Virus record (IMG/VR): IMGVR_UViG_3300020469_000068
Location: 1-50,958 of that record
Origin: a virus
Strand: one strand, 5' to 3'
DNA: 50,958 nucleotides
Below are positions 9,158-47,066 of this stretch, in pieces; positions within the stretch are counted from its first letter, which is position 1; the number at the start of each line of letters is the position of its first letter. The notes beneath the pieces are model-generated. The model had not been told where the DNA came from. It ran no database searches and worked only from the letters and a program-made list of their open reading frames with translations. Position numbers and translations under genes: made by a program.

Positions 9158-12100
9158 CTATACTACACCGCCGTCTGTTATTATCCAGTTTTTACCTGTT
9201 ATACTTGATGCCGAAGATGTATGAGAAGTTGTCAATACTGCCTTAGAGGTAACTGGATTAGTTAATACTGAATCTACCGTTGCGCTAGAATCAAGTTGAG
9301 TTGTTTTTGCTAATATATTTTTATAGTTACTACTTCCAAAATGAGCATTAAATTTATCTGCATCAGTAAATTGGATTGTCATAGCATTTGTACCTGGCGC
9401 AGCTATAACTGCAGAGATTACGGGTTCTGCTTGATTAGTTGCATCTGTAACTTTAGGAGTACCAGAAATTCCTGTTCCACTTACAGTCATTCCATTTACT
9501 ATAGTGCCTGATAGAGTACCAGTCAATTTAAGTTTATTTGATGTGAACACCAAATTTGAGTTGTTGCCTACAACGCCATCTCCCGTAGAAGTCAGTGCCG
9601 GTGTTATAGTAATTGTTCGTGCTCCGACTGCTGTTACTGTACCAGGATTTGGGAAATCCGCGTCTCCCATATCTACTGTCATACCAACTTCGATACTTCC
9701 AATAGCATTACCAGATGCTCCTGTAAATGTATCGACCGGAATTACTGTATGACCAGCTATACTTGGGAATTGAAATTGGACATTAGTTGTAATATTTTGA
9801 GTCAGGTTAGCGGCTGCTCCATTATCTTGTCTTACGATAGTAATAACATTTCCAACTATAGAACCAATTACTACTGTCATACCACTTGGGAACCCCGCAT
9901 TTTGTGATTTAACTATATCACCGACTGCTAAGTCCGCAATGGTTTGTGTTTCTCCATTTGTGAAGTCCTTTAACGTAATTGTATTTGAACCACTGGCAAC
10001 TGAACTAGCAGCTTTTGCAAACTTCTGATTTATCTTAGCAGTAACAGCTGCTGTAGCAGTTCCACCAGTAATCGCTCCGGTAATAAATACTCCGCTAGGT
10101 AATGAACTATTTTGTGACCAAGTTAGATAGCATCGGTTTAGTTCGTCTGTATTAATTTTGTTATTAAGGAACGCGTCTTTGAGACCTCCAGCGGTTCCTC
10201 GAACTAAAGAGTTTATATTTCTACTATGCAATCCAATAACCTTTAGCGTTCCACTAGTAGCACTAGATAATTTAGCTAAGTTAGCCATAGTTGTTACATT
10301 AGAAGTATCCATACCTCTCATATCAAGAGTTACTAGAGCTGAGCAATTTTCGAATGCAGAAGTCATATCAGTTACAGCACTAGTATTAGTTACTCCTGCA
10401 ACAGTTGTAACACTTTTCAGTTTTACGCAATCTTTAAACATTGTAATCATACCAGTTGAACTAAATGGATTGTTACCAATATATGCGGTCTCTAAAGAAT
10501 TTTTCCAATTAGCTCTTGCTGTGGTTTTAGCCGAACTGGATGCAGTTGATGAACTAGCAGATGTAGTACTAGAAGAGTTTAGTACATGATAGCTGCCTGA
10601 TATTTTTATGTCATATGTATTTCCAACTCCACCAGTGTATGTGTGATATAAATCTTTGTCTCCGGTAAATTTAATAATATTAGTTGAACCATCACCCCAG
10701 TCCACGAATGCGCCCATTGCGCCACTAACATTTTGTAATGGCAGAATAATTGAAGCATTAGTTCCAGTAAAGCCATTAGCTGCAGAGAAGTTAACATTGA
10801 ATACTGAATCAGTACTACTAGGTATTGGTGTAAATTTTTCTTCGGCAATATCAGTATAATTTGTTGTTTTATTATTTACTGTAAATGATTCATTTAACTT
10901 TACACTAAATTTATCATCTTCAATCGCGTGGAAATACTCGCCGAGTGTTTTCTTATTATCTGATATAACCCCTCTCCAAGATATAACTGGTATTTCTTTA
11001 GAAGTCATTTGTAGATTAGTTTTATATGTAAATTCACCTTCTACTAACTCTTTAAGCGAAGGTTCTGAGCCATCAACTAAATCAACACGAGGACTATAAA
11101 ATTGTACTGGGTCTTCTGTATTTCTTGGATTTCCTTGTATTAAGCAATCGACTTTGATGTGAGCAATATTTGAACTAAATATCCAATCACCCTGTTTAGT
11201 ATTTGTAACAGTACTTATCTTATTGGTATTACCTGCAAGGTATATTCCACTATCAGCATGAGCTGAAAATCCAGTAGGGTCTGTAGATGCTGGGTGTATG
11301 TGAGCTACGAACAATAACCATTTATCATTATTTCCTTTAGCAGATTCTGCAACACTTGTAGCAGAGTTCGGCCCAATATCAAAATCATTAATAAATGTTC
11401 CAATTGGTGTTTGGGTATTTCCATTACTCACTTCTAACGGAGTTGTAATTGCAGCATCAGTAGCTCCACGCCATCTAATAATTTTGTGAGCTCCCATATC
11501 ACTAGTATAACTAGAAGAGCCGGGTGAATCAGCAGAGAATGTAGTATCAGATTGTTTTACCCAAACTGAGAATCGATACATTCTTTTGCTATCTACCGCA
11601 ACTGATGGAGTCCTAAATCCACCATCAAAGTAACTAAAGTTGGTTGAAACATTACCTGGGCTATCATCTCCTGTTGGGTCTTCTGATATATTACCCTTAA
11701 TAACTTCTCCAGTTCCTTTTTCTAATCCAAATAGAGGGTCTTCATAAGCTACTACTTGGCCATCGGTTAGTGAATTTGTGAAATAATCAGTCACGACTTG
11801 CGTCTGACCAGGGCTTTGGTGTACAATTGATTTTATGTTAAGAGGAGACCCTATGTAAAGCGTTTCTTTCATACCTGCTTTAAGCACCCCACTACCAACA
11901 GTACCAGTTTTTGCAGCCCGCTCTTTTAGGTTAATAGTTCGAGTTGCTGGTCTAAATGTTAAAGTAGTATTATTGCTAATAGTAGCTGCTTGGCTTAATA
12001 CAATAGGAATAACAGACTTTCCAGTATCATTATCTCCTTTAGTGCCTTCATAATTTACTGATGCGACAGTAACAGTTCCACTGATTCCAGTTCCAGTTAC

Positions 12101-15100
12101 CCGCATACCTGGTTCGATCGCCCCCATTGTTGTAGCTGGGCTATTTCCAATATTATAATTAGTTGTACTAGTAGCAGTCCCTGTTACCTGACTCTTACCT
12201 GCAATTGAAGGTGCAGTTTGGTTACCATTAATTTTAGCACTAACGGCTTCTGGCGAATCACCATAGGCATCAGATACTGTAACGGTTCCCATTCCGTTTG
12301 TTTCAAAATTACTTGGAAGAGTTGATAAGCCATAATCTTTTAGTGGACCAGTCGCAGTAAATATATCTCCGACAGATGGTGTAAAGGTTCCAGCTAATCC
12401 TGTTGGGTGTATCGACCGCCATTCTCTTGGGGAATTATTTCCAACTGTTTTAACTGTAGCCCGTTGCCCAGCGACTAATTCTGAAATTGGAATGTCTTTT
12501 GTTGCATCATCTCTTGCAGAAGCTGCATTAAATTTAGGTCCGACAGCAAATTTCATTGGTATACCAAATATAGCGGTTTGATTTCTTCCGTAGTTAAACC
12601 CTCCTTTACCACTCACCATTGTTACACTTTGAATTACTCCACTATTCTGAACTATTACATTTGCAAGACCACCTTTACCGACAGCCTTTGAGCCAGTATC
12701 AATTATAGGAACGTTTGAATATGTCTTACCACCACTTGCTCCCGTAAACCCAGTGCCGGCAGTAGTTCTAGTAAATTTTCTTAATACTCTAAAAGTATTA
12801 TCTGTATTTCTTGCTTCCCATATTGCGTCTCTACCACCGAATGGGGTCAAATCCATTTTACCAATATTTTCGTATGTAGTGGTGTACGGTGAATTAGATG
12901 AACCAGAATTTATTTTTGTAGGATTGCCAACTGGAGTAAAGAAGTTGGGTGAGTTAATTAAATCTGCCGGAGTATTACTTTCATTTCCACTTGTGGTTGT
13001 GTGAATATTAATATGTTCATTGCCGTACGACGCAGTCAATGTGCTAGCATTTAATGGGAAAGGAAGATTACCTGCAAGTAAATTACTTTCTTGACCATTT
13101 AAAGTATCTAAAGTAAGTAATGAATTTGAGTAGGGCTTTGTATTATCGCCCATTCTTAGTTTATACGTATTAGTTGCAGCTCCAAATTTTATTCTAGTTG
13201 AGAATAATGAATCTTCGCCAATACCTGGAGTATTAGATTTTAAATCATATTTTCTTCTATCGATAACATTAATTATTGTTTCTCTTCGTGCATCAATAAT
13301 CTCTTTACCTTCTGCGAGGTCGGGGTCAACACCTTCTTTAACTCTTAAAGATTTAATATAAAAGTATTCGCCTGATGCATCTCCACTATAAGCTGCAACA
13401 TCTCTTTCGGGTATTGCATTTCCGTTTAGATTAGACACAAACCTAAATACTGGTGTTGGGTCTTCTGTATCAGATCGAGTAAAGAACTTATGAGTGAATG
13501 GAACCCAAGAACCCTTAGTAGTAATTACAGTTTTGTCCGTAGAAAGATAGTCAAATCCTGCACAAGGCCCAGTATTTATTTGGTGTGTACCCTTAGTATT
13601 TTTAAATAGTGGATTTCCGTTAGCATCTGATACTGGCTGTCCTCTAGTCTCAGATAATTTTCTTGGATTGACTCCAGCCATCACACATAATTTTTGTAAC
13701 TTACTATTACCACTTGGAATAAATACCTGTCCACTTATTTCGTATTGTGTATTCGGAGTATATGTTCTATCTCCGGTTGTAACGTCATACGGGAATATAG
13801 TTCTATCACTACCAAAATCAACATAATGAATATTTTGTGAAGTCGCAATAAATTTAAGAACCCCGTAATTTCCTTTAGGTATACCCAAGTATAAAGTGCT
13901 ACCACTTTTCTTATTGCCAACCTGAGCGTCCGAATCATATGTCTCAATAGATGGTACTATAACTTGTCCGCCCGTAGCTAATGCTCCATCAACAGCTGTA
14001 ATACTAGAAACATCAAGTGGTCTATACGCAGCGGTTCCATAATTTGGGTCAGTGTTTACTGAACCAGTGAAAGTTACTGGTGGGTCTGCGACTATTGATT
14101 GGAATTTTCCTTTATAAATAAGTTTTCTTTTCTTTCTGATATTTAAATTTTCTAATTTATAAGCAAATGCGTGTTTCTTTTCGTGAGCATTAACAATTGC
14201 AGAAGCTTCTACGCTTCTTCCAGTATATCTAGTTGCATCTCTGTCAGTTACATTATCTAAAACAATTTTAGAATTGGCAGTATTACTATCCATATATACG
14301 ACATGCTTATTAGCACCATCTCTTACTAATCCATTATTAGCTCCTGCTGGTAATACTTCTATAAATGCACCGGTCATACCGTCACCACTAACTGAGTAAA
14401 ATTGAATAACATTTTCTCCATAAGTTAGCCATTCAGTTTCAAACATAAACAATCCGTAATCATTTAGTGCACCTGGGAAAACGCCGTCATAGTTATGATG
14501 TGCTTCATTGTCCGCAGATAATCTAGCTGAATGGTCCATTTGGAAATTATCATCTGGTATTGAGATAGTCTGATTATTAAACTGCCACTGTTGTGGTATT
14601 TTTGCTATTCCTATTCTGTCACTATTAGTATTTTTAACTCTTAGTGTATGGCCATTATGAGCTAATAGCCAACCATTTTCGACTTCTTTTACAGATAAAA
14701 AGATTCGTGCAAAGCCTTCTGCAGAACTATGGAATATAAATTCGTGTGGACCATCACCATTACCACTACTTTGTGGTACATGTGGGTTTCCTCTAGCATT
14801 GTTCATACCAGCATACCCAAATAAATTATGGTATGAACCAATCTTATCGCCCCCGCCTATGTATAGATTACTAGGAAAGTTATAATCGTATAAACGTTTA
14901 CAATCGAAATTAACTTCATATTCTACTTCTTTGTCGAAGAGTCGGTTATCTCCAATAGAATTAAGTTCTGTAGAATCTGTACTAATAGAATCCTCGAGTG
15001 TAAAAGTAACTGGTTTAGTTACAAGTGATAATGGTTTAGTAGAGTCTGGTATACTAATCTTACCCGGCGCTAATCTAGATACTTTAATTTGTAATGCAGG

Positions 15101-18100
15101 AGCTCCTGAGCTTCCTATTTTTGCATCTGCTATTGTAATTATTTCGCCTTCTCTAAAATTACATCCTGGTTCTAATATCTGCGACCTTGCATAATAATGA
15201 TTACCGGCTTTGCCAAAAGTAATTAACAATTTAGCTCCAACACCAGAATGGCTGGTAGTATAATCAGAATCAGTTAAAGTGAATGCGGTGGCGGTAAGAC
15301 CTGAATATAAGATATTGGAATGGCCATTGCTTACATCATCAACATTTTTAATACCACCCGATTTTAATACAAGGGCATTTCCACCAGCATTTAATATAGC
15401 ATTTTTAAGTTCGCCATTTAAAATTTTATTTTCTAAAACTGCACCATTTGGAATAACATCTGGTCTTGCACCTGATGTTTCGGTAGCAGGTATTGATGTT
15501 ATCGGTTGGGCTTCATATGCATGATAGGATTCGCCCGAAACTGTTTCATCGGTGGCTCCTCTATCGTGTTCGGATATTGTATATCTGAAATCAAATTCTT
15601 TTGTATTGCCTCCTGTTAATGTAGATTTATTAACTAAAGCTGCTGATGCGACATTAATACTAGCTGGATATTGAGATACTCTATGTTTTGGAAGTGTTAA
15701 GCATTCTTCGTGTGCTCTTTCAGTGCCATCTAAAACTTCTACAGTCGGAGTGCCAAACTCTATTTCGTCGGCTGAAGATGTAGCATTATAGAATTGATAT
15801 GCCCTAACCAATAGCCTTCTAGTTTCAGTAGAAGCAAGCTGGAACGATTTAGTTTCAAGGTTTTCTATCTTTTTACCAGTAGAATAGTCCCATACCCCTA
15901 CAAAGTCTGGTATAACACCTTCTATAAATGTAGGCCTTGCGTTATCATCAGAAGTTACATTCCTTGTAGCTTTAATATAGCCACTTACTAGATACCATTT
16001 ATTTGATTCTAATTGCGTGTTTTGAAGATTATAACCAAGGAAATAACGATTCTCTGCCCCTATTTTAACTACTTGTGGATTATTTACAAAGCTAGTAATC
16101 ACTGCGGCGTTTCCGCCATTAGTAATTTTATTAGCAGTTCTAGATATATTAGTAAACAGTTGGATTCTTTTATTTCCATTGTCTGCATCACTCAAGCGAT
16201 TTATGTAATAATAATCATAGTTGCTACCATGATTTAATTCTTGGTTACTTGAGTCAAAATCACTATTGCTGAAATGCTTAAATAATACTATATTACCTGT
16301 TGATATTGAAAATGATGAAGGTACTTCAACTATAGTAGAATTGGCTGTACAAGTAACCGATTGAACTGTACGGGTATGGTATGTAGACAATCCAGTTTCA
16401 CTCCCCTCTGCGAGATCAATTAATGGAATATCGGTAGAACTATTTGATACGTCTCCAACATTTCTTCCTCCGCCGACCTGACTAGAACCAGCTTCTTCAG
16501 CATTATAAACACCAAAGTATATGTTACCATCATTACCAGCTCTAGATTTTATTTTAAACGGGAATGTAAATTTATGATCTTTATAAGGGTTGACTTCGAC
16601 GTATGGTGAGTGATATCCGCCATCTTGTGCATTATCGGTAGAACTATTTTTTGCAATCCATGTAACTTCTTTTTCGCCGAATGGACCAGTAGAAATACTT
16701 CTTAGTTGTTCTTCAGCTGAACCATTCATACTCCACTGTGAGCCATTGACAATATTATCTCCATCGCCAGGCGTCCATGGTAAATAAGGACTCAGTAAAT
16801 TTGTATCGGTAAATGAATCATCGACTTCGTGTAAGCCCGATAGTTTTTGATTTCTATTTAATGTTCCAATTGCTATACTATTTGTTTTAACACCATTAAC
16901 AGTACCAGAATCTAATAGTGCTGGAAGAACTTGGGTTTTTCTTATTAAAGTAAAGTTAGTAATTGTTACAACTGCGTCAGAGTCGTCCGCATAGAAATAA
17001 AGTCCTCGGTTGTCTGATTCAGTCGCAGTAAGATTTGTTAAGCTCACCGTTCCACTAGTTGCAGTTGTTCCTAGGGTATGTCCTCCAACACCTTCAAAGT
17101 TGAAATATGCAGTTCCTGTTGAAATAGAATTGATTTCAAAATCAAAACTAATATCATAATTACCCGCTCCTATTTTTTCACCATTGGGTAATCTAAGATT
17201 ATAATATCTACTAGCACCTGTACTAAATTGAATTTTAAAATCTTTAATATCAGTGGTAGCTGACTTTATTACTGTTATACCAGAACTTACACTGCTCTCT
17301 TTTAAAGTGTTGGATAAATCTACTGAGCCAGAGAAAGTTGTCTGAGGCGCATCTAAGCTATTCATGTGTAGAATATTTTTGATACCCCATTCTGGTGCAT
17401 ACTTTGGAATACTATCAAATTCAATAGCTTCACCATCAACTCGTTTTATAGAAACCTTTTTAATTAACAAAGATGGAACGTGAGCACCAAGCGCGCCTGA
17501 ATTTGTATAATTATTAATAAGTACTAGATTAAATTTCTTGGCTCCAAAATCAAATTTACTAGCAGAATCGGTTGTTACATCTTGATAACCGTGCTCTGGG
17601 TCAAAGGGCGGGTTAATCCCACCAACCGTTTTAGTAAACGTTTTCTCTACACCAGCATTTAACAAGAAATTACTGGCTATGCCCCAGTTATATGTATTAA
17701 ATCTATCAGTAGCTAAGCTATTATTAGATGCATCTAAACTTTGCAGTCCAGCATATACTCTTATATTTCTGTTCGATATATTTTTATAGGTAACTTCTAT
17801 TTCAAACTTAGTATCTAAATTATCAATTATAGAACGATTATTAAGATTAAGCCATCTAGTACCACCAGTAACTACAACGCCATTTAATTCATCGTCATAA
17901 TATATCGCGCCGGAGTTGTCTCTGTTAGTTAATGAATCAATGTCGCGGAAACCCTGACTAGTAAATGCGTCACTAAAATCATAATTTTCTAATAAAATCT
18001 CTTTGACATTTTTAGGAGAAGCCGCTTCTTTTTTGCTACGAAGAATAGCGTCGTCGAGCATAACCTGGCCATTAGCATGAACCCGCAATGTTTTGAATGT

Positions 18101-21100
18101 TCCAGCAGTTCCTAAATCAACTATAAGTGGTGCGGAATAATTTAATCCCTTTTCAGCATCTGGTAGTTGGTAAAATTTATCTCTTTCAAATGGACCGTGT
18201 CTTATAATTGGAATTGCCGGTGTACCGGATAATCCAGCAGTACTAATTGTATTTGATTGATACTGCAGAGATACCGTTTTTGCTGCAGTATCACCTGTAT
18301 TTTCACTAATTCTTTCTATACATCTTTCTTCATCAAGGCCCACTGTGGTCGAGGAATCAGTATTAGAATTTCTTACACCAATAAATGAATGGGAAATTCT
18401 CTCGCCATTGATATCACTTGACTGAGCAAATTCTGTTTGTCTGTTGGGTGCTCCAAAGTATCTTGCCAATGCCCATCTTAAACCTTCAGTGCCTACCGCT
18501 CCAGAAGTATATTGATAACCAGTAGCAGAATCAAAATTATATCCACCAGTTGGCTTTACCGACGTGCCTAATCTAGTTGCGTTAACTTTACATTTTGCTG
18601 CATCGTATGTGTATATAGCAACTATTAAACCAGATTCAGTATTTTTAAGTTTATCGTGAAGAGCATGTTCAGCTTCATCAGAAGTAGAATGGCCAGATAC
18701 ACTCCCGCCATAAGTATCAAAGTAAAAATGTCTGTACTTGTTAGGCGCGTATGTGTCTCCGTCACTGGTGACAGTTCCACTGGTTTGATTAAATATAATT
18801 ACATTGTGGCCTCTAAATCGTTTATTGTAAGTATTATCACCACTACCACTTCCATTACCAGAAGTCTCTTGAGAAACGGAAGGGTCACTAAATTTAACAC
18901 CATGCCCCGAGGTGTGGTAATTTAAATTAGTACCAGTACATTGTATTGCATCAAATACTCTACTGTCATTTTGGTCTTCGGGCCTACCAGAAGCAGTTGA
19001 ACTATAATCTGAAACAACAACTTCAACTTTATTATCTGCATAGCCTTTAATTGATAGTTCTCTAAAATTACCATCAGCCACTCCACGAAATTTAGTTCCT
19101 GCTAAATATTTTCCTTTAATAGAGGTACCACTGGTTTCTTTAAGTTTGAATTTTAGTTCTAATTCGCTTTCCTGAGTCAGCTCTCCGCCCGTACTAATTG
19201 CAGTACCATTACCGTCAAGCTCGATATATCTTTCATCAATTGTAGTTGAATCATCAGTAGTATCTAAAATTGCCTTTTTGGCATTTCCACTCAATACATC
19301 AGATGGACCTTCTAGTTTTAATCCTTTTTCATAGTTATAGGCTACATCACCCATTCTATTGAACTGAGATTGTTTCTGCGCAAAGAAGGCCGATTGAAAT
19401 TCGTATAGAATAATTTCTAAGTAAGCGTTATAGAAGTATTCTAACCAACCAGGCTGGTATGTAGGACTATGAGAACCGTCACTAACTTGGTTTTGAAGAA
19501 GTCTAAAGGTACCAATAGGATCAGAAGCTTTAAACTCTGGTGGCTTAAAGAATTCGCCTTCAGCATTTGGAGCTTCAACACTATCACCTAAAGGCATATA
19601 TGTGTCTTCTTGATAAGGCTTTCTTATTTTTACCAATTCCAAGAAAAGAGCCGTGAAGAATTTCATTCCAGCTGGGTGAACTAATTTATTAAATTCTGTT
19701 TCCCAACTGTCAACTGATAGCTTAGTTCGAACAACATAAGAAAACTCTTGAAAGTAATCACCATCATGCAATTTCATAGCATCAGATAAATATCCGCGAG
19801 TATCTTTCCAGCGAATCACTCTTGGATACGCAGTACCACTCGAAGACAGACCATAATTTAATTCTTCAATTACTGGAATAGATGTAACATCTGGGTTATC
19901 ATCATATCCACCACCTTTAATAGCTTTTGCAACCACGATGCTCGAGCCTTTATTTGTGATATTCACGCTTCCGCTGTTATCTAAATCAATATCAATTATC
20001 GTATTCTGTGGTACAACCTTATTAGAAAGAAAGTTAGACATCTCAGTATCAGATGCTAATGTAGGAATAAAGCTAAATCCGTAATAATACAATGGACCAT
20101 CGGGGTTCTCTACCGCCGCGCCAGTCAATGAAGGCTTTAGTGCAGAGCTTCCAACACTACCGAAATTGTAGGCTGAACCAATTGCACCCGGGTATAAATT
20201 TACTGTATTCACTCCACCACCACTGGTTGATGCATTAGTTAGACTAGATGTCAATGGCGCTGAAGCGTAAGCGGTATTTAACGCAGCAATTTTAACCGCA
20301 GTCAAAGTAAATTCATTTCTTTTAAATTCTAACGACTGGCCCGTGTTTAAATTTACTGGATTAGTAACAACCAAAGCTCCGGTGGAGGTATTATAACTTA
20401 CAACAACAGTACTGCCTTGTTGGTTTGATATTCCAACACCTATTGCATTTCCAACTGTCATATATTGCCCAGCTTCTATAGTTCCAGTTACTGTAGATGT
20501 ATCAAGTGTAAGCGAAGTAACGCCATTAGCATCAGCATTAAGAGAAGCTACTGCTTTATTTCCAACGGCTGAAGCCTGAGTTCGACTAGAGTCTACAGAA
20601 ATAGCTAATCTTAATCTTTGCTTTGATAAATTTATTTCTGACCTAAATGGGTAATCGGTTGAATTATCAACATAATTATTAAAGGTAGCATTAAAATCAT
20701 TTTGCCAATTGCCAAGCCTTCCTCCAATTGCGAGATGACCATCACTGGTAATTTTTAGAAAAACACCAGCGTTTTTAATCGAATCTCTTGTAAATGTTCC
20801 GCCTGTTACTGAGCTCGCCGAAAAGAGATGCGTATTGGGAAATGAAGCTATCGCATGTGTGTTTGGTAAATCAGTATTAGAAACACCTAACTTAAAATCG
20901 TCTCCAAATTCTATGTCTAAGAAATAAGTACCCTGCCGTACATCAGCATACGTACTATTCCTGTAAAAATGAAGCCTTCGCATATTATCATAACCTTTTT
21001 TATAATAATACTTTTCTTTTGTAACTGCTTCGGCTGATGTTCCTTGGTAGTCACCATCAGATGTTTTAAATAATACTTCTTTAGGATAGGATACAGAAAC

Positions 21101-22171
21101 AATTTCATCAAAGAATATTTTAAAGAATGACTCAATGCTTGATTCACTACCTCGAGTATTATAATATTCTACAATCTTTTTATATAAAGCGTTTTTATCT
21201 AAGTTCTTTGCATCAGGTATACCCTTTGCAATTTCCATAGCAATTCTATCGATATAATCATCAGTAGTTTTATCAATATCATGTTCCTGTAAAACTCTTC
21301 GAGTAACATTACTTGGAGAAGCTATTACTTCTGAAACTGAAATCACTGATGATTGTAAAATCGGCAATTCCATATAATCGTCTATTCTATAACCGTAGCC
21401 GGATTCGTTAGGAATTACACTTACTACTTTACCGTTATCAGCAGTGATGTCTAAGGTCAAACCTTTACCGTGTCCACCACTAGCTACAATATTAGAAAAA
21501 TTAACTAAAGTAGTTTTAATCGAGGTTTGACTATTGACAGAAGAAGCTAAAGCAATAGGGTCTATATTACCAGCAATAAATGCTCCAGCATCTCCAGTGT
21601 CTAATGTGTTGAATGACCCACCGGAGTTTCCTCTAAAGACTATACTTGATACGTCATCGGTATTTGAACCAGTCGCAGTATCTGCAAGGCTATCATAAAA
21701 ATCGCATTGTAATGAACCATTATTATTATATGCCATTACCCATGTGTTATACAGAGCAGTACGTGAAGCTCCAGCTCCAACGTTTTTATCCATTTTCAAA
21801 AGAAAATAATTAGCATTTGTTAATCCACGATATGCAATGGCTGAACCAAAATTAAGTGCGGAATTTTCTACATCCGTTAATTTAATATATTGCTGATTAT
21901 AATTTGACGGTACGAAAGAAAAACATTCAGCGCCAACTATTGCAGTTGATTGTAATAAATCCGCATAAGAAATAACTGAACCAGTTCCTGGTGATACTAT
22001 ATTTAATGCTTTAACGATACCATCTTCATTCATGTAATCATAATACTCAGTTAAGAGTTCAATTAGATTACTTGCTTGATTGCGTAATTGGTCTGGTACC
22101 AAGGCTCTAGTCCTTGATGCCTCTACATTATGTGGTACAATTGCGAATGATTCAGTTGATTCGTGCGACAT
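9158..22171 (-). CDS. Giant baseplate/adhesin-like structural protein (4337 aa) with BspA-like LRR segment
   Basis: A single uninterrupted 13-kb frame starting two bases after gp6. Residues 1 to about 1000 look like the conserved baseplate-associated part: an N-terminal RNQASNLIELLTEYYDYMN helix, an IPDAKNLDKNALYKKIVEYY block followed by NTRGSESSIESFFKIFFDE (about 310-350), and a HPAGMKFFTALFLELVK block (about 830). Residues about 1000-3800 are Gly/Ser/Thr/Asn-rich beta-sandwich-like sequence. A PKD-like VDWGDGST strand lies near 3823. Residues about 3890-3990 carry BspA-type leucine-rich repeats (MTSAFENCSALVTLDM, then GMDTSNVTTM). Short modules of the form 'I..GM.V.GTGI.GT..V' recur near residues 560, 3350 and 4050-4230. 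It occupies the gp7 position of T4. Likely a huge wedge-linked adhesin; no enzyme motif was found. Confidence 0.85.
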   Translation of the reverse strand: MSHESTESFAIVPHNVEASRTRALVPDQLRNQASNLIELLTEYYDYMNEDGIVKALNIVSPGTGSVISYADLLQSTAIVGAECFSFVPSNYNQQYIKLTDVENSALNFGSAIAYRGLTNANYFLLKMDKNVGAGASRTALYNTWVMAYNNNGSLQCDFYDSLADTATGSNTDDVSSIVFRGNSGGSFNTLDTGDAGAFIAGNIDPIALASSVNSQTSIKTTLVNFSNIVASGGHGKGLTLDITADNGKVVSVIPNESGYGYRIDDYMELPILQSSVISVSEVIASPSNVTRRVLQEHDIDKTTDDYIDRIAMEIAKGIPDAKNLDKNALYKKIVEYYNTRGSESSIESFFKIFFDEIVSVSYPKEVLFKTSDGDYQGTSAEAVTKEKYYYKKGYDNMRRLHFYRNSTYADVRQGTYFLDIEFGDDFKLGVSNTDLPNTHAIASFPNTHLFSASSVTGGTFTRDSIKNAGVFLKITSDGHLAIGGRLGNWQNDFNATFNNYVDNSTDYPFRSEINLSKQRLRLAISVDSSRTQASAVGNKAVASLNADANGVTSLTLDTSTVTGTIEAGQYMTVGNAIGVGISNQQGSTVVVSYNTSTGALVVTNPVNLNTGQSLEFKRNEFTLTAVKIAALNTAYASAPLTSSLTNASTSGGGVNTVNLYPGAIGSAYNFGSVGSSALKPSLTGAAVENPDGPLYYYGFSFIPTLASDTEMSNFLSNKVVPQNTIIDIDLDNSGSVNITNKGSSIVVAKAIKGGGYDDNPDVTSIPVIEELNYGLSSSGTAYPRVIRWKDTRGYLSDAMKLHDGDYFQEFSYVVRTKLSVDSWETEFNKLVHPAGMKFFTALFLELVKIRKPYQEDTYMPLGDSVEAPNAEGEFFKPPEFKASDPIGTFRLLQNQVSDGSHSPTYQPGWLEYFYNAYLEIILYEFQSAFFAQKQSQFNRMGDVAYNYEKGLKLEGPSDVLSGNAKKAILDTTDDSTTIDERYIELDGNGTAISTGGELTQESELELKFKLKETSGTSIKGKYLAGTKFRGVADGNFRELSIKGYADNKVEVVVSDYSSTASGRPEDQNDSRVFDAIQCTGTNLNYHTSGHGVKFSDPSVSQETSGNGSGSGDNTYNKRFRGHNVIIFNQTSGTVTSDGDTYAPNKYRHFYFDTYGGSVSGHSTSDEAEHALHDKLKNTESGLIVAIYTYDAAKCKVNATRLGTSVKPTGGYNFDSATGYQYTSGAVGTEGLRWALARYFGAPNRQTEFAQSSDINGERISHSFIGVRNSNTDSSTTVGLDEERCIERISENTGDTAAKTVSLQYQSNTISTAGLSGTPAIPIIRHGPFERDKFYQLPDAEKGLNYSAPLIVDLGTAGTFKTLRVHANGQVMLDDAILRSKKEAASPKNVKEILLENYDFSDAFTSQGFRDIDSLTNRDNSGAIYYDDELNGVVVTGGTRWLNLNNRSIIDNLDTKFEIEVTYKNISNRNIRVYAGLQSLDASNNSLATDRFNTYNWGIASNFLLNAGVEKTFTKTVGGINPPFDPEHGYQDVTTDSASKFDFGAKKFNLVLINNYTNSGALGAHVPSLLIKKVSIKRVDGEAIEFDSIPKYAPEWGIKNILHMNSLDAPQTTFSGSVDLSNTLKESSVSSGITVIKSATTDIKDFKIQFSTGASRYYNLRLPNGEKIGAGNYDISFDFEINSISTGTAYFNFEGVGGHTLGTTATSGTVSLTNLTATESDNRGLYFYADDSDAVVTITNFTLIRKTQVLPALLDSGTVNGVKTNSIAIGTLNRNQKLSGLHEVDDSFTDTNLLSPYLPWTPGDGDNIVNGSQWSMNGSAEEQLRSISTGPFGEKEVTWIAKNSSTDNAQDGGYHSPYVEVNPYKDHKFTFPFKIKSRAGNDGNIYFGVYNAEEAGSSQVGGGRNVGDVSNSSTDIPLIDLAEGSETGLSTYHTRTVQSVTCTANSTIVEVPSSFSISTGNIVLFKHFSNSDFDSSNQELNHGSNYDYYYINRLSDADNGNKRIQLFTNISRTANKITNGGNAAVITSFVNNPQVVKIGAENRYFLGYNLQNTQLESNKWYLVSGYIKATRNVTSDDNARPTFIEGVIPDFVGVWDYSTGKKIENLETKSFQLASTETRRLLVRAYQFYNATSSADEIEFGTPTVEVLDGTERAHEECLTLPKHRVSQYPASINVASAALVNKSTLTGGNTKEFDFRYTISEHDRGATDETVSGESYHAYEAQPITSIPATETSGARPDVIPNGAVLENKILNGELKNAILNAGGNALVLKSGGIKNVDDVSNGHSNILYSGLTATAFTLTDSDYTTSHSGVGAKLLITFGKAGNHYYARSQILEPGCNFREGEIITIADAKIGSSGAPALQIKVSRLAPGKISIPDSTKPLSLVTKPVTFTLEDSISTDSTELNSIGDNRLFDKEVEYEVNFDCKRLYDYNFPSNLYIGGGDKIGSYHNLFGYAGMNNARGNPHVPQSSGNGDGPHEFIFHSSAEGFARIFLSVKEVENGWLLAHNGHTLRVKNTNSDRIGIAKIPQQWQFNNQTISIPDDNFQMDHSARLSADNEAHHNYDGVFPGALNDYGLFMFETEWLTYGENVIQFYSVSGDGMTGAFIEVLPAGANNGLVRDGANKHVVYMDSNTANSKIVLDNVTDRDATRYTGRSVEASAIVNAHEKKHAFAYKLENLNIRKKRKLIYKGKFQSIVADPPVTFTGSVNTDPNYGTAAYRPLDVSSITAVDGALATGGQVIVPSIETYDSDAQVGNKKSGSTLYLGIPKGNYGVLKFIATSQNIHYVDFGSDRTIFPYDVTTGDRTYTPNTQYEISGQVFIPSGNSKLQKLCVMAGVNPRKLSETRGQPVSDANGNPLFKNTKGTHQINTGPCAGFDYLSTDKTVITTKGSWVPFTHKFFTRSDTEDPTPVFRFVSNLNGNAIPERDVAAYSGDASGEYFYIKSLRVKEGVDPDLAEGKEIIDARRETIINVIDRRKYDLKSNTPGIGEDSLFSTRIKFGAATNTYKLRMGDNTKPYSNSLLTLDTLNGQESNLLAGNLPFPLNASTLTASYGNEHINIHTTTSGNESNTPADLINSPNFFTPVGNPTKINSGSSNSPYTTTYENIGKMDLTPFGGRDAIWEARNTDNTFRVLRKFTRTTAGTGFTGASGGKTYSNVPIIDTGSKAVGKGGLANVIVQNSGVIQSVTMVSGKGGFNYGRNQTAIFGIPMKFAVGPKFNAASARDDATKDIPISELVAGQRATVKTVGNNSPREWRSIHPTGLAGTFTPSVGDIFTATGPLKDYGLSTLPSNFETNGMGTVTVSDAYGDSPEAVSAKINGNQTAPSIAGKSQVTGTATSTTNYNIGNSPATTMGAIEPGMRVTGTGISGTVTVASVNYEGTKGDNDTGKSVIPIVLSQAATISNNTTLTFRPATRTINLKERAAKTGTVGSGVLKAGMKETLYIGSPLNIKSIVHQSPGQTQVVTDYFTNSLTDGQVVAYEDPLFGLEKGTGEVIKGNISEDPTGDDSPGNVSTNFSYFDGGFRTPSVAVDSKRMYRFSVWVKQSDTTFSADSPGSSSYTSDMGAHKIIRWRGATDAAITTPLEVSNGNTQTPIGTFINDFDIGPNSATSVAESAKGNNDKWLLFVAHIHPASTDPTGFSAHADSGIYLAGNTNKISTVTNTKQGDWIFSSNIAHIKVDCLIQGNPRNTEDPVQFYSPRVDLVDGSEPSLKELVEGEFTYKTNLQMTSKEIPVISWRGVISDNKKTLGEYFHAIEDDKFSVKLNESFTVNNKTTNYTDIAEEKFTPIPSSTDSVFNVNFSAANGFTGTNASIILPLQNVSGAMGAFVDWGDGSTNIIKFTGDKDLYHTYTGGVGNTYDIKISGSYHVLNSSSTTSASSSTASSSAKTTARANWKNSLETAYIGNNPFSSTGMITMFKDCVKLKSVTTVAGVTNTSAVTDMTSAFENCSALVTLDMRGMDTSNVTTMANLAKLSSATSGTLKVIGLHSRNINSLVRGTAGGLKDAFLNNKINTDELNRCYLTWSQNSSLPSGVFITGAITGGTATAAVTAKINQKFAKAASSVASGSNTITLKDFTNGETQTIADLAVGDIVKSQNAGFPSGMTVVIGSIVGNVITIVRQDNGAAANLTQNITTNVQFQFPSIAGHTVIPVDTFTGASGNAIGSIEVGMTVDMGDADFPNPGTVTAVGARTITITPALTSTGDGVVGNNSNLVFTSNKLKLTGTLSGTIVNGMTVSGTGISGTPKVTDATNQAEPVISAVIAAPGTNAMTIQFTDADKFNAHFGSSNYKNILAKTTQLDSSATVDSVLTNPVTSKAVLTTSHTSSASSITGKNWIITDGGVV

Positions 22172-30851: not shown

Positions 30852-32201
30852 CTAGTAACTACTTCCACCACCACCGCCGCCGCCACCGCCACCACCGCCG
30901 CCATAAGCACCAGTAGTAGAACTAAGTCCACTACCACCTATAGTGGGAGAAGTAGGAGAAACAGAAATTGCTTCCGGTACTCCTTCAACGCTTTCTATTC
31001 TAGTTAGACCTGAATTTATTTTATTTTCAAAGGCCTCAGCAAACGAACCAATTAAATCTGGTGCAATTACTTTTATTCGACTCTGAGATTCTGTGTGTCT
31101 TACTTCATGTTGGTAAAAAGATTCAAAATTCATTGGGTCAAACCCGCCTGACAATGCATCGTATGCACTAATTTTATTCTCATTAGTATATGCTGTTGAA
31201 TTATAATAACAAAATGGTGCATCTCTAGCCGATAAGAATGTATGTTGTTTAGTATCAGTAGGTCTTAGATAAGGAATAAACCCTCGGTGTCTTATTTCTC
31301 CAACCTCCCACTGATCGTAATGAGTAAAATATCTAGTAAATACAGTCAATGCAGCCTGTTTAGCGCCACTCTGAATTTTATTTGTATTATAAACATTAAG
31401 TGGAGTATCTGCTCCAGTATTTACTCCGCCAGTTAGATTACTTTCAAACCATTCAAATAAACCAACCATCCATTCTAATCTCTTAGTAGTTATAGTTGAA
31501 AGATAATCAAATCCTGCACCACTTTCATTATTTTGTCCTAACACAGGCCAATCATTGAATGTAAATGAGAGCGCTCCTTTAAATTTAGATGAATTCCATG
31601 TATTATTATTTGGGCCTAACTCTACATTCGTGAGATAGTCCATAATATCTCTTTCATCTGCCATGAAGCGGTTTCTGTTTGTAAAGTCTGTTAAAAATAA
31701 TTGTTGTCTTGTGTTATCCCATTTAATTGGTCGCGCGGTTTCGTAATTTCTAAAAAATCTAATATCTTCATAAGTTAAATCTAATCCAGCTGGTGTATTA
31801 TCTACAATAGCAAAGACCTCATCTCCTGGTATGGAAGATGTAGTTATACTTGCCTTTTTAAAACTAGGTTTAATTGAAGGCATAAAAGACATAACAGAAA
31901 TATTATCATATTCTCTTTGCATCTCAGTTTCAAGAGATTCGTATGAAACTGGCCAGTCATCAATTCCTTTTTTTAAATTTTCGTTTACAATAAAAAATGT
32001 CCAATAATAATCTGGCGTACCATATAATCTCTGAGACAAATTATCTGGCCGTTCACCATCTTGAATTGTTTCATACAAATAATTAGTAATATCAGATGCA
32101 AGAAGGTCATTGACATCTACGTGACGAAAGAAATCAACTACGCTTTTAACACGATCGGCTAAAAAATAATTTGCTGTTGGAAATTGTTTAAAAAATGACA
32201 T
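30852..32201 (-). CDS. 53: Baseplate wedge protein gp53 with poly-glycine tail
   Basis: A 449-residue gp53-family protein; T4 gp53 is only about 196 aa. The family signature is at the N-terminus: FPTANYFLADRVKSVVDFFR, then YLYETIQDGERPDNLSQRLYG and PDYYWTFFIVNENLKKGI (about 35-80). The extra residues after about 190 include conserved-looking aromatic blocks and end in a run of 13 glycines followed by SSY. Gp53 clamps neighbouring wedges together. Its ATG overlaps the gp48 stop (TAATG at 32201). Confidence 0.88.
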   Translation of the reverse strand: MSFFKQFPTANYFLADRVKSVVDFFRHVDVNDLLASDITNYLYETIQDGERPDNLSQRLYGTPDYYWTFFIVNENLKKGIDDWPVSYESLETEMQREYDNISVMSFMPSIKPSFKKASITTSSIPGDEVFAIVDNTPAGLDLTYEDIRFFRNYETARPIKWDNTRQQLFLTDFTNRNRFMADERDIMDYLTNVELGPNNNTWNSSKFKGALSFTFNDWPVLGQNNESGAGFDYLSTITTKRLEWMVGLFEWFESNLTGGVNTGADTPLNVYNTNKIQSGAKQAALTVFTRYFTHYDQWEVGEIRHRGFIPYLRPTDTKQHTFLSARDAPFCYYNSTAYTNENKISAYDALSGGFDPMNFESFYQHEVRHTESQSRIKVIAPDLIGSFAEAFENKINSGLTRIESVEGVPEAISVSPTSPTIGGSGLSSTTGAYGGGGGGGGGGGGGSSY

Positions 32202-33631
32202 TAACTTATTTTCTCCATGTCGACATCAAGTAATCCATAATTGACTACATAAAATCCATTATTATCAGTTGAAACTGCGGGGTGTTTAGAATCTATTTCT
32301 AATAAGTCCTGAGCCATTACTCCTCGGTATCTATCTACACCATCAATATATTTAAATTCATATATCTTAATGCCTGATGGAGATACATCAACTTCATATA
32401 TATTTTCTTTTAGCCGAATATCTGAACTTGCTGTGCCATATCCCGACCTCGGGCTAATGCCTGGATTAACGCCATCTCTCGCATTTCTAAGAGTGGCCGC
32501 GTCTGTGTGGCCTAAAACTTGAATTTCTTCGGCAGTAACGCCCTTTTTGTTATCGCCTTCGTCAGCCTGCTGTATGAATCCTTGTAATGAATTATCTGGT
32601 GCTGCAGTGGCTCGACCTTTAAGACCGATTCCTCTTGCTGCTTGGTTTTCTATTTCGTTATCGTAATAATTTCCATTGCCGGCAAGACCTTCAAGAGCAT
32701 TGATATCTATTGCATTAAGAGCTCTTGATTCGGTAAAGGTTAGTGATACATCAACTTCAAGTGGAGCTCCACCTGGGTGCCAAGCAGCGGCAGTAGTATT
32801 AAAGGTAGCATTAAATCCACCCAAGTAACAAGCAAATATTTTTGGTAGGTATGGATTAAATTTCGCTCCTTCAAATCCTACACTCTCTAAAAAATCTATT
32901 TCCCATATTGGAGGGTAAGATAAAAAGGCATTAAATTTACTATCCCCTTGGGCCTCATTGCCACCATACATATTAGCTCTGAAGAAATGGTCTATTTTCT
33001 TAATCATTGTAGCATCAGCCTCAGAGCTTGCTACCATCTTAAAATTGAAAGTAAAACTTCTAACATTATTTCCTTGAAATGTAGTGTTAGTAAATTGATT
33101 CATAGATTGTTTCTTAATAGCTTGAGCTTTTGTTAAACTTCCACCCAATGCTGCGTCCAATCCACCTAAAAATGTTTTACCAATTGCTTTCTTTGTGGCT
33201 TCAAATGCGCCCATCGCTTTATCGCTACCTGAAGCACCTGTATTGTAGATCATATCAGCTGCAGCACCTGCGATTCCTAAATCAATAGAAGACAAATTTG
33301 CTGCATCGCCAAATGCAATATTAGCAGGACATGGAAAATAGCAAGATTCGCGAGTTAATTGTGTGACTTCTTTAGAGGGGTAAGTTAATTTAACGCATGA
33401 AAATCTTACTTGAGGTCTTTCTGCAGCTAAATCATCTTGAGACGGAAAATAATAAGTCTCACCCTGAGCAGCCGTCTGTCTTTTTGGACTTACATTACCA
33501 CTGATGCCGCCTCCTGCTCTTATAGCATCTGCCTTCTTCGACAGCTCTTTGCCATAATTACCTTTATTCCAACGACCAGATTGGTTGGTGTTTTTTCCTA
33601 AAAGTTCTAAGTCTGCTTTTGATGCTACCAT
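32201..33631 (-). CDS. 48: Baseplate tail-tube cap protein gp48 with C-terminal S74-type chaperone domain
   Basis: A 476-residue protein. The middle carries the gp48-type tube fold: VRSFTFNFKMVASSEADATM, IKKIDHFFRANMYGG, LSYPPIWEIDFL, and LEVDVSLTFTESRAL. Residues about 403-476 are a peptidase-S74/intramolecular chaperone domain: SSDIRLKENI, YEFKYIDG, YRGVMAQDLLEI, and GFYVVNYGLLDVDM. The Ser and Lys of the SDxRLK motif, implicated in autocleavage in fibre proteins, are both present. It is the first gene of the left structural operon, 32 bases after a TATAAATA box, with an AAGGA ribosome binding site. S74 domains normally end trimeric fibres, so this fusion to a hexameric tube cap is odd. Confidence 0.82.
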   Translation of the reverse strand: MVASKADLELLGKNTNQSGRWNKGNYGKELSKKADAIRAGGGISGNVSPKRQTAAQGETYYFPSQDDLAAERPQVRFSCVKLTYPSKEVTQLTRESCYFPCPANIAFGDAANLSSIDLGIAGAAADMIYNTGASGSDKAMGAFEATKKAIGKTFLGGLDAALGGSLTKAQAIKKQSMNQFTNTTFQGNNVRSFTFNFKMVASSEADATMIKKIDHFFRANMYGGNEAQGDSKFNAFLSYPPIWEIDFLESVGFEGAKFNPYLPKIFACYLGGFNATFNTTAAAWHPGGAPLEVDVSLTFTESRALNAIDINALEGLAGNGNYYDNEIENQAARGIGLKGRATAAPDNSLQGFIQQADEGDNKKGVTAEEIQVLGHTDAATLRNARDGVNPGISPRSGYGTASSDIRLKENIYEVDVSPSGIKIYEFKYIDGVDRYRGVMAQDLLEIDSKHPAVSTDNNGFYVVNYGLLDVDMEKIS

Positions 33632-35448: not shown

Positions 35449-36165
35449 ATGGCACTACCAAAACTAGAAACACCTACATACCAGACGACTATACCGTCTT
35501 CGGGTAAATTGATTGACTATCGTCCTTTTCTCGTGAAAGAAGAAAAAATATTGATGATGGCTCAAGAATCACAAGACCCTGCTCAGGCAATGGTCGCTCT
35601 CAAGAGAATTATCAAGGCTTGTACCTTTGATAAAATAAATCCTAATGAGTTGACTACCTATGATGCAGAGTTTTTATTCTTACAACTTAGAATTAAGTCA
35701 GTAGGAGAAACGGCTGAGTTCCAACTTCCATGTGAAGGTTGCAAAGAGATGCAAGATGTTAAAGTCGACTTAACAGAGGTCGAAGTTAATATGCCGGACG
35801 AAAAACCAGAATCAAATATTAAACTAACAGATGATGTTGGTATAATTCTAAAAGAGTTAACTCTAAATGATGCAGTTGGAATGACTGGTAAAGATATGGA
35901 CGACATTAGTTCTTTAGTATCTTTAGTAATCGATAGTATATACGACGAAGAAAAAGTATATAAGGCAGATTCAGTATCTAAAAAAGAACTAGCTGAATTT
36001 GTTGACCAATTAAATCATGCACAATTACAACAGGTTCAAGCGTTTATCTCGGCTCAACCCGCAATTGAGAAGACGATAGCGTTTGGATGCAACAATAAAC
36101 AAGCAGGATGCGAGGGATGTAAGACAGAAGTAACAATGAGAGGACTAGCGGATTTTTTCGCATAG
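35449..36165 (+). CDS. 26: Baseplate hub protein gp26-like (zero-frame product)
   Basis: A 238-residue protein of the T4 gp26/T4-baseplate family: LETPTYQTTIPSSGKLIDYR, PFLVKEEKILMMAQES, and FLFLQLRIKSVGE. Two cysteine pairs (C95-x2-C98 and C221-x2-C224, plus C214) suggest a zinc site. T4 gp26 (208 aa) is needed for hub assembly. A good AAAAGGA ribosome binding site precedes the ATG. The frame ends ...ADFFA-TAG, with a TTTTTTC slippery heptamer over the two Phe codons (236-237) and a long open -1 frame behind it. It lies immediately upstream of the tape measure, the position of a tail assembly chaperone. Confidence 0.88.
   Translation: MALPKLETPTYQTTIPSSGKLIDYRPFLVKEEKILMMAQESQDPAQAMVALKRIIKACTFDKINPNELTTYDAEFLFLQLRIKSVGETAEFQLPCEGCKEMQDVKVDLTEVEVNMPDEKPESNIKLTDDVGIILKELTLNDAVGMTGKDMDDISSLVSLVIDSIYDEEKVYKADSVSKKELAEFVDQLNHAQLQQVQAFISAQPAIEKTIAFGCNNKQAGCEGCKTEVTMRGLADFFA
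36153..36159 (+). other. Putative -1 ribosomal frameshift site (T TTT TTC)
   Basis: In the gp26 frame the codons read GAT TTT TTC GCA TAG, so T-TTT-TTC is a canonical X-XXY-YYZ heptamer two codons before the stop. An SD-like AGAGGA (36139-36144) lies 8 bases upstream and serves no start codon. A 6-bp hairpin (36182-36187 with 36201-36206) follows at a rather long distance. The -1 frame is open from here to 36347. Confidence 0.6.
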
Positions 36166-36347
36166 GCCTTTCGCATGATTCGTTAGTTAACCATATTCAG
36201 ACTAACTTTAATATGATGCAACATCATAAATATAGTCTGACTGAATTGGAAAACATGTTACCGTGGGAAAGGCAGATTTATACAGCCTTACTCATCGACC
36301 ATATTAAAGAAGAAAACGAAAAAATCGAACGGGAAAGAATGAAATAA
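36159..36347 (+). CDS. -1 frame extension of gp26 (gp51-position / GT-like domain)
   Basis: After a -1 shift the ribosome reads 62 more residues: RIGLSHDSLVNHIQTNFN, then MMQHHKYSLTELENMLPWER, then QIYTALLIDHIKEENEKIER. The fusion would be 299 residues. The frame has the composition and helix pattern of real protein. The only ATGs (36213 and 36216) have no Shine-Dalgarno sequence and are buried in a 7-bp hairpin (36212-36218 with 36222-36228), which argues against separate initiation. The stop is one base before the tape-measure ATG. The extension lies where T4 has gene 51 (hub assembly), but I cannot show homology. Alternative: a separate small gene started at 36213. Confidence 0.6.
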   Translation, partial: RIGLSHDSLVNHIQTNFNMMQHHKYSLTELENMLPWERQIYTALLIDHIKEENEKIERERMK

Positions 36348-38503: not shown

Positions 38504-38580
38504 TGGTACTCCGAGCAGGACTTGAACCTGCGACCCACGGTTTAGAAAACCGTTGCTCTATCCAACTGAGCTATCGGAGC
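38504..38580 (-). tRNA. tRNA-Arg (anticodon TCT) with encoded CCA
   Basis: Read on the minus strand, a full cloverleaf of 77 bases is present: acceptor GCTCCGA with TCGGAGT (G1-U72 wobble), D-arm GCTC...GAGC, anticodon stem ACGGT/ACCGT around loop TTTCTAA (anticodon TCT, reads AGA), T-arm GCAGG-TTCAAGT-CCTGC, then ACCA. AGA is common in this AT-rich genome, so the tRNA probably supports phage codon use. It begins 2-3 bases after the gp32 terminator. Confidence 0.95.
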
Positions 38581-46989: not shown

Positions 46990-47066
46990 TGGTACCCCTA
47001 CACGGATTCGAACCGTGGTTGACGCGATGAAAACGCGGTGTCCTAACCTGGCTAGACGATAGGGGC
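46990..47066 (-). tRNA. tRNA-Glu (anticodon TTC) with encoded CCA
   Basis: A 77-base cloverleaf on the minus strand: acceptor GCCCCTA with TAGGGGT (G1-U72, as in the tRNA-Arg), TCGTCTAG D-arm typical of tRNA-Glu, anticodon loop TTTTCAT (TTC), T-arm CACGG-TTCGAAT-CCGTG, then ACCA. Position 27-43 of the anticodon stem is a C-U mismatch. A strong promoter starts about 20 bases upstream. Confidence 0.93.

Follow-up and report, generated by a model that had tools for sequence, protein, structure and literature searches.

A probable −1 ribosomal frameshift and a conserved, covarying downstream RNA stem at the gp26–gp51 locus of a T4-like phage

From the sequence of a viral genome and its relatives, we conclude with high confidence that ribosomes translating a gp26-like gene would slip back by one base close to the end of that gene, yielding a tail assembly chaperone of two lengths, with a long-range RNA stem downstream of the slip site as the likely stimulator. 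A −1 slip that makes a gp26/gp26–gp51 protein pair is very likely at this locus and is known in kind; the idea of chaperone frameshifting in T4-like phages was already reported in 2022, and this phage is a further member. The apparently new element looks to be the conserved, covarying RNA stem situated just 3′ of the slip site.

The DNA that we analyzed (the window, 50,958 nucleotides) is one strand of viral DNA comprising positions 1–50,958 of IMG/VR record IMGVR_UViG_3300020469_000068. Its gp26-like ORF matched the Pfam family T4_baseplate (PF12322) with an E value of 3.6e-51 (174.4 bits, versus a curated cut-off of 24.5) and PHROG_150 (baseplate hub) with an E value of 7.1e-57. Both the sequence and the ORF list bear out the observation in an earlier note on this DNA, made from the letters alone, that the gene ends GAT TTT TTC GCA TAG, and the heptamer T-TTT-TTC within this end sits in the phase required for a tandem −1 slip. 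The −1 frame, which that note had also reported to be open, runs from the start of the heptamer to a TAA at 36345–36347, a span of 64 sense codons that includes both Phe codons and 62 codons beyond them, and the TAA ends one base before the ATG (36349) of the next large ORF. This 716-aa ORF had no match in Pfam or PHROG; its position directly 3′ of the extension suggests that it encodes the tape-measure protein, and we call it the tape measure for that reason (Table 1). Elsewhere, the minus strand of the window carries a tail-tube-cap-like protein (PHROG_230; 32201–33631) whose C terminus is a Peptidase_S74 chaperone domain, an unusual combination, as well as a single ORF of 4337 codons (9158–22171), very large for the window, and phage tRNA genes for Arg (TCT; 38504–38580) and Glu (TTC; 46990–47066).

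Table 1. Features of the putative frameshift locus, in window coordinates.
Feature	Position	Strand	Evidence
gp26-like gene, 238 aa; putative short chaperone form (TAC-N)	35449..36165	+	ORF, Pfam, PHROG
SD-like AGAGGA; possible minor stimulator	36139..36144	+	sequence; anti-SD pairing
Slippery heptamer T-TTT-TTC	36153..36159	+	sequence; conservation
−1 frame extension (gp51 family); would give the long form gp26–gp51 (TAC-NC)	36153..36347	+	open frame; PHROG_634
5′ arm of long-range mRNA stem, beginning 6 nt past the heptamer	36166..36177	+	fold, RNAalifold, covariation
Internal 7-bp hairpin within the loop of the long stem	36212..36228	+	predicted fold
3′ arm of long-range mRNA stem, in the codons of a conserved P-W-E-R motif	36262..36273	+	fold, RNAalifold, covariation
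Next large ORF, 716 aa	36349..38499	+	ORF; tape-measure label by position

By itself the heptamer was unremarkable, the window containing 25 copies where 24 would be expected. Because the motif is common, the case for it rests on conservation, and it is conservation across loci, not rarity, that counters the possibility of a chance occurrence. Every one of the 84 loci in our first set has TTTTTTC or TTTTTTT close to the 3′ end of gp26, and when these were reduced to 42 non-redundant loci (<85% nucleotide identity) xxT TTT TTY was kept in 42 of 42; for the two synonymous positions, retention on this scale would have a probability of ~10^−17.8 on the assumption, not fully valid, that the loci are independent. 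Further scans widened the set to 334 related loci, in 325 of which our script scored the heptamer. Among the nine that the script missed, all six that we re-scanned were heptamer-positive (L028 and L294 among them), L029 had been positive in an earlier scan, and L291 has a sequence tail identical to that of L028 and L294; LIS04 was the sole locus of the 334 found truly to lack the heptamer. A scan of viral contigs with the Caulobacter protein as the query returned two loci, and one with the Vibrio protein returned none. The heptamer and −1 extension were also present in phages of Caulobacter, Acidovorax, Agrobacterium, Stenotrophomonas, Aeromonas, Citrobacter, and Vibrio. A comparison of homologous gp26 loci, of the kind that the earlier note had suggested as a check on the frameshift, found the heptamer and the open −1 frame conserved and revealed no conserved start codon for the extension.

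Some loci depart from the standard layout. Pelagibacter phage Mosig (L085) keeps the heptamer and has its 0-frame stop 24 nt past it, such that the short form would gain a few extra residues, and 32 of 253 distinct loci share this heptamer-to-stop spacing. Three phages of Gram-positive hosts, LIS04 (L095, Listeria), SP-15 (L341, Bacillus), and GXN1 (L342, Streptococcus), have no T-TTT-TTY heptamer at the end of the gp26-like gene and carry extension-like sequence in a frame offset by +1, which equals −2. A CCCGATT element also occurs close to the 3′ end of this gene in each of the three phages, so that a shift by +1 or −2 is possible there.

The extension matched PHROG_634 (phage gp51 family) with an E value of 4.7e-25 as well as the C terminus of PHROG_150 (gp26 family), and a tblastn search with the extension found matches in 520 phage records. 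Separate gp51 CDSs are annotated in the records of P-SSM2, P-RSM6, Mosig, Cr30, and Vibrio phages, as would be expected if the extension were a small gene in its own right, with a separate start reached by translational coupling or by re-initiation close to the stop codon of gp26. The start codons of these annotated CDSs, however, are not conserved, and most loci have no start codon at all near the junction; where one exists its SD pairing is weak, and the same calculation applied to gp26's own start gave strong pairing (mean −5.5 kcal/mol). In the window, the −1 frame contains in-frame ATGs at 36213, 36216, 36255, and 36339. The earlier note had placed the only internal ATGs within a hairpin; the hairpin does appear in the predicted fold, and the ATGs at 36255 and 36339 must be added to those it contains. 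The alignment to gp51 homologues begins at the slip-site Phe codons, in T4 a gp26 domain and the extension form one in-frame fusion, and independent initiation would have no need of a heptamer. We rejected an independent gene with its own start, for want of a conserved start codon, and consider it extremely improbable.

The relationship to T4 supports a frameshifted origin of the longer protein. T4 gp51 matches both PF12322 and PHROG_634, indicating an in-frame fusion of the extension to a gp26-like domain. It therefore has the same composition as the predicted long product of this phage, a gp26-like domain followed by the same extension, but is encoded by one uninterrupted gene, a second PF12322 copy, with no heptamer. 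T4 gp26 ends GAG TTC TTT GAG TTA CTA TAA and also contains no heptamer. Because PF12322 was present in one copy in each of 12 heptamer-bearing genomes versus two copies in T4, frameshifting and gene duplication look like alternative routes to the same protein pair. Copy numbers were two in Campylobacter phage CP21 and one in LIS04; the second match in CP21 (L096) is partial and lies elsewhere in the genome, reminiscent of T4's two-gene layout. The earlier proposal that gp26 and its extension may be the T4-lineage counterpart of lambda G/GT is strongly supported by the conserved heptamer and −1 frame, the homology to gp51, the lack of a conserved start, and the fused paralogue in T4.

Single-sequence folding of the window yielded an outer stem (z −4.1) of 11 bp that closes an 84-nt loop coding for the extension and whose 3′ arm ends 75 nt upstream of the next start codon. 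When RNAalifold was applied to 39 loci aligned gap-free from the heptamer, it recovered a helix in which columns 15–25 pair with columns 110–120; for this structure 90.9% of cells in the alignment pair and 30 cells are changed on both sides, none of 500 shuffles reached its pairing score, and versions slid by 1–3 columns scored much worse. In 117 loci that use CTY for Leu and TCN for Ser, the synonymous third bases of the Leu codon and the Glu codon covaried with a phi of 0.70, the top value of all columns tested. Base composition is not the explanation, because both third bases correlate weakly and negatively with GC3, and shared ancestry was likewise rejected, as none of 1500 simulations on the gp26 tree reached a phi of 0.70 (maximum 0.52). 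A covariation test restricted to independent pairs gave 2.6 same versus 0 opposite, which is in the expected direction, with supported pairs too few to be decisive. Across 96 divergent loci, 61 had a stem (≥7 bp) that starts 4–9 nt past the heptamer, compared with 23.8 expected from synonymous-codon shuffles.

We rejected the idea that this exact stem is universal: across 230 loci of standard spacing, a fit was obtained for the Leu-Ser lineages, whereas the Met-Ala (P-SSM2-like) lineages did not fit. In P-SSM2 a local hairpin follows the heptamer in place of the long-range stem, and P-RSM6 has a different local stem. The phages Vibrio D481 and Mosig have a long-range stem after the heptamer, and Citrobacter Ci1 and Mendera have no stem of this kind at the site. 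A search of Rfam identified no known RNA family there. Judging from its position and conservation, the 11-bp stem most likely raises the slip rate. On balance we also favor a broader proposal, in which T4-like phages would share a long-range stem ~6 nt after U-UUU-UUY that encloses the extension and determines how much long chaperone is made relative to short, with P-SSM2-type lineages having swapped in a local hairpin.

The position of the 3′ arm relative to the next start codon would also suit a stem that is real and serves a different role, controlling translation of the next gene or mRNA stability without stimulating slippage. We regard such a role as unlikely, given that the 5′ edge of the stem lies ~6 nt past the heptamer in many loci, including lineages with other pairing partners, and that the stem leaves the start of the next gene free. 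The placement of the stem, at a distance typical of ribosomal −1 sites, also speaks against a change of frame by RNA polymerase, rather than the ribosome, slipping on the T run. Slippage of that kind is made conceivable by a site consisting of six or seven T, but in 200 of 253 distinct loci a C ends the run after only six T, a short run for polymerase slippage; moreover, the phase xxT TTT TTY is fixed. Polymerase slippage is thus very unlikely to account for the site, and ribosomal slippage remains our preferred reading.

Upstream of the heptamer, the AGAGGA stretch, which the earlier note likened to dnaX-type stimulators, ends 8 nt before the slip site; a function beyond protein coding is weakly indicated. 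Anti-SD pairing of the upstream region in 97 loci was slightly stronger than after synonymous randomization (−6.3 versus −4.8 kcal/mol). The same Arg-Gly-Leu residues are retained in T4 gp26, where there is no heptamer, which argues that conservation of the SD-like stretch is partly due to the protein, and we view the stretch as a possible minor stimulator. The internal hairpin encodes a conserved MMQHH, and its conservation may likewise be due to the protein.

In the mechanism that we propose, most ribosomes would terminate at the gp26 stop codon and release TAC-N, like lambda gpG, and a minority would slip back one base on U-UUU-UUC, read the extension, and produce gp26–gp51 (TAC-NC), like lambda gpGT. 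The long-range stem beginning 6 nt past the heptamer would most likely boost the slip, perhaps assisted by the weak SD-like stretch upstream. TAC-N and TAC-NC would be expected to hold the tape-measure protein encoded by the next gene and to recruit tail-tube subunits. The structure of gp26 was predicted confidently; a search of the PDB with it gave no match at an E value of 0.001 or better, and the model matched predicted phage baseplate hub proteins. In a review of T4, gp26 and gp51 are listed as hub assembly chaperones, with gp51 absent from the final particle, and reports of gp26 in the hub are cited (PMC3004832). Slippage in cells and its rate, stimulation by the stem, and the chaperone function of the two products are all features that we infer.

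Tail assembly chaperones of T4-like phages were identified by Vladimirov, Gautam, and Davidson in 2022; their abstract reportedly describes frameshifting as apparently conserved in several T4-like groups, with genes 26 and 51 used in the T4 group. The earlier note's statement that no case had been described in T4-type gp26/51 does not stand, as the citing passages of two papers credit work on T4-like slippery sites and on a two-gene alternative to Vladimirov et al., 2022. One of these passages cites that study (Virology 566:9–15) for polyT slippery sequences in the TAC-N genes of T4-like phages (PMC12846349), and the corresponding passage of the PRFect paper, also citing it, describes some T4-like phages as encoding the short form and the fused long form in separate genes, with no frameshifting (PMC10885494). 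As portrayed in these passages, the 2022 system has the same gene families and polyT site as ours; the passages make no mention of a downstream stem. Our search of the literature, which covered Vladimirov et al., 2022 through papers citing it, found no description of the stem.

Among better-known systems, lambda makes a short product (G) and a long one (GT) through a −1 slip close to the 3′ end of the gene that precedes the tape measure (Levin 1993; Xu 2004; PMC5009743), the same arrangement that we propose here, whereas the lambda heptamer is G-GGA-AAG rather than T-TTT-TTC. The −1 sites of the dnaX type combine a heptamer with a downstream structure and often an upstream SD motif (PMC7618472). 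Our locus shares the heptamer and the downstream structure, with the covarying stem at the right distance, but differs from these sites in that the stem closes a loop of 84 nt in which the extension is encoded, and its SD-like element is weak.

Many public genomes annotate the extension separately or omit it, with the consequence that the fused product is absent from their protein lists. As for the stem, its covariation makes it a concrete, testable candidate stimulator of the slip. In a 2016 review, T4 is still named as the one that departs from the G-T frameshift rule for phages with long tails (PMC5009743); this locus and its hundreds of relatives, many of them from marine samples, indicate that the rule holds in the wider T4 lineage, with T4 itself using a duplicated, fused gene instead of a frameshift.
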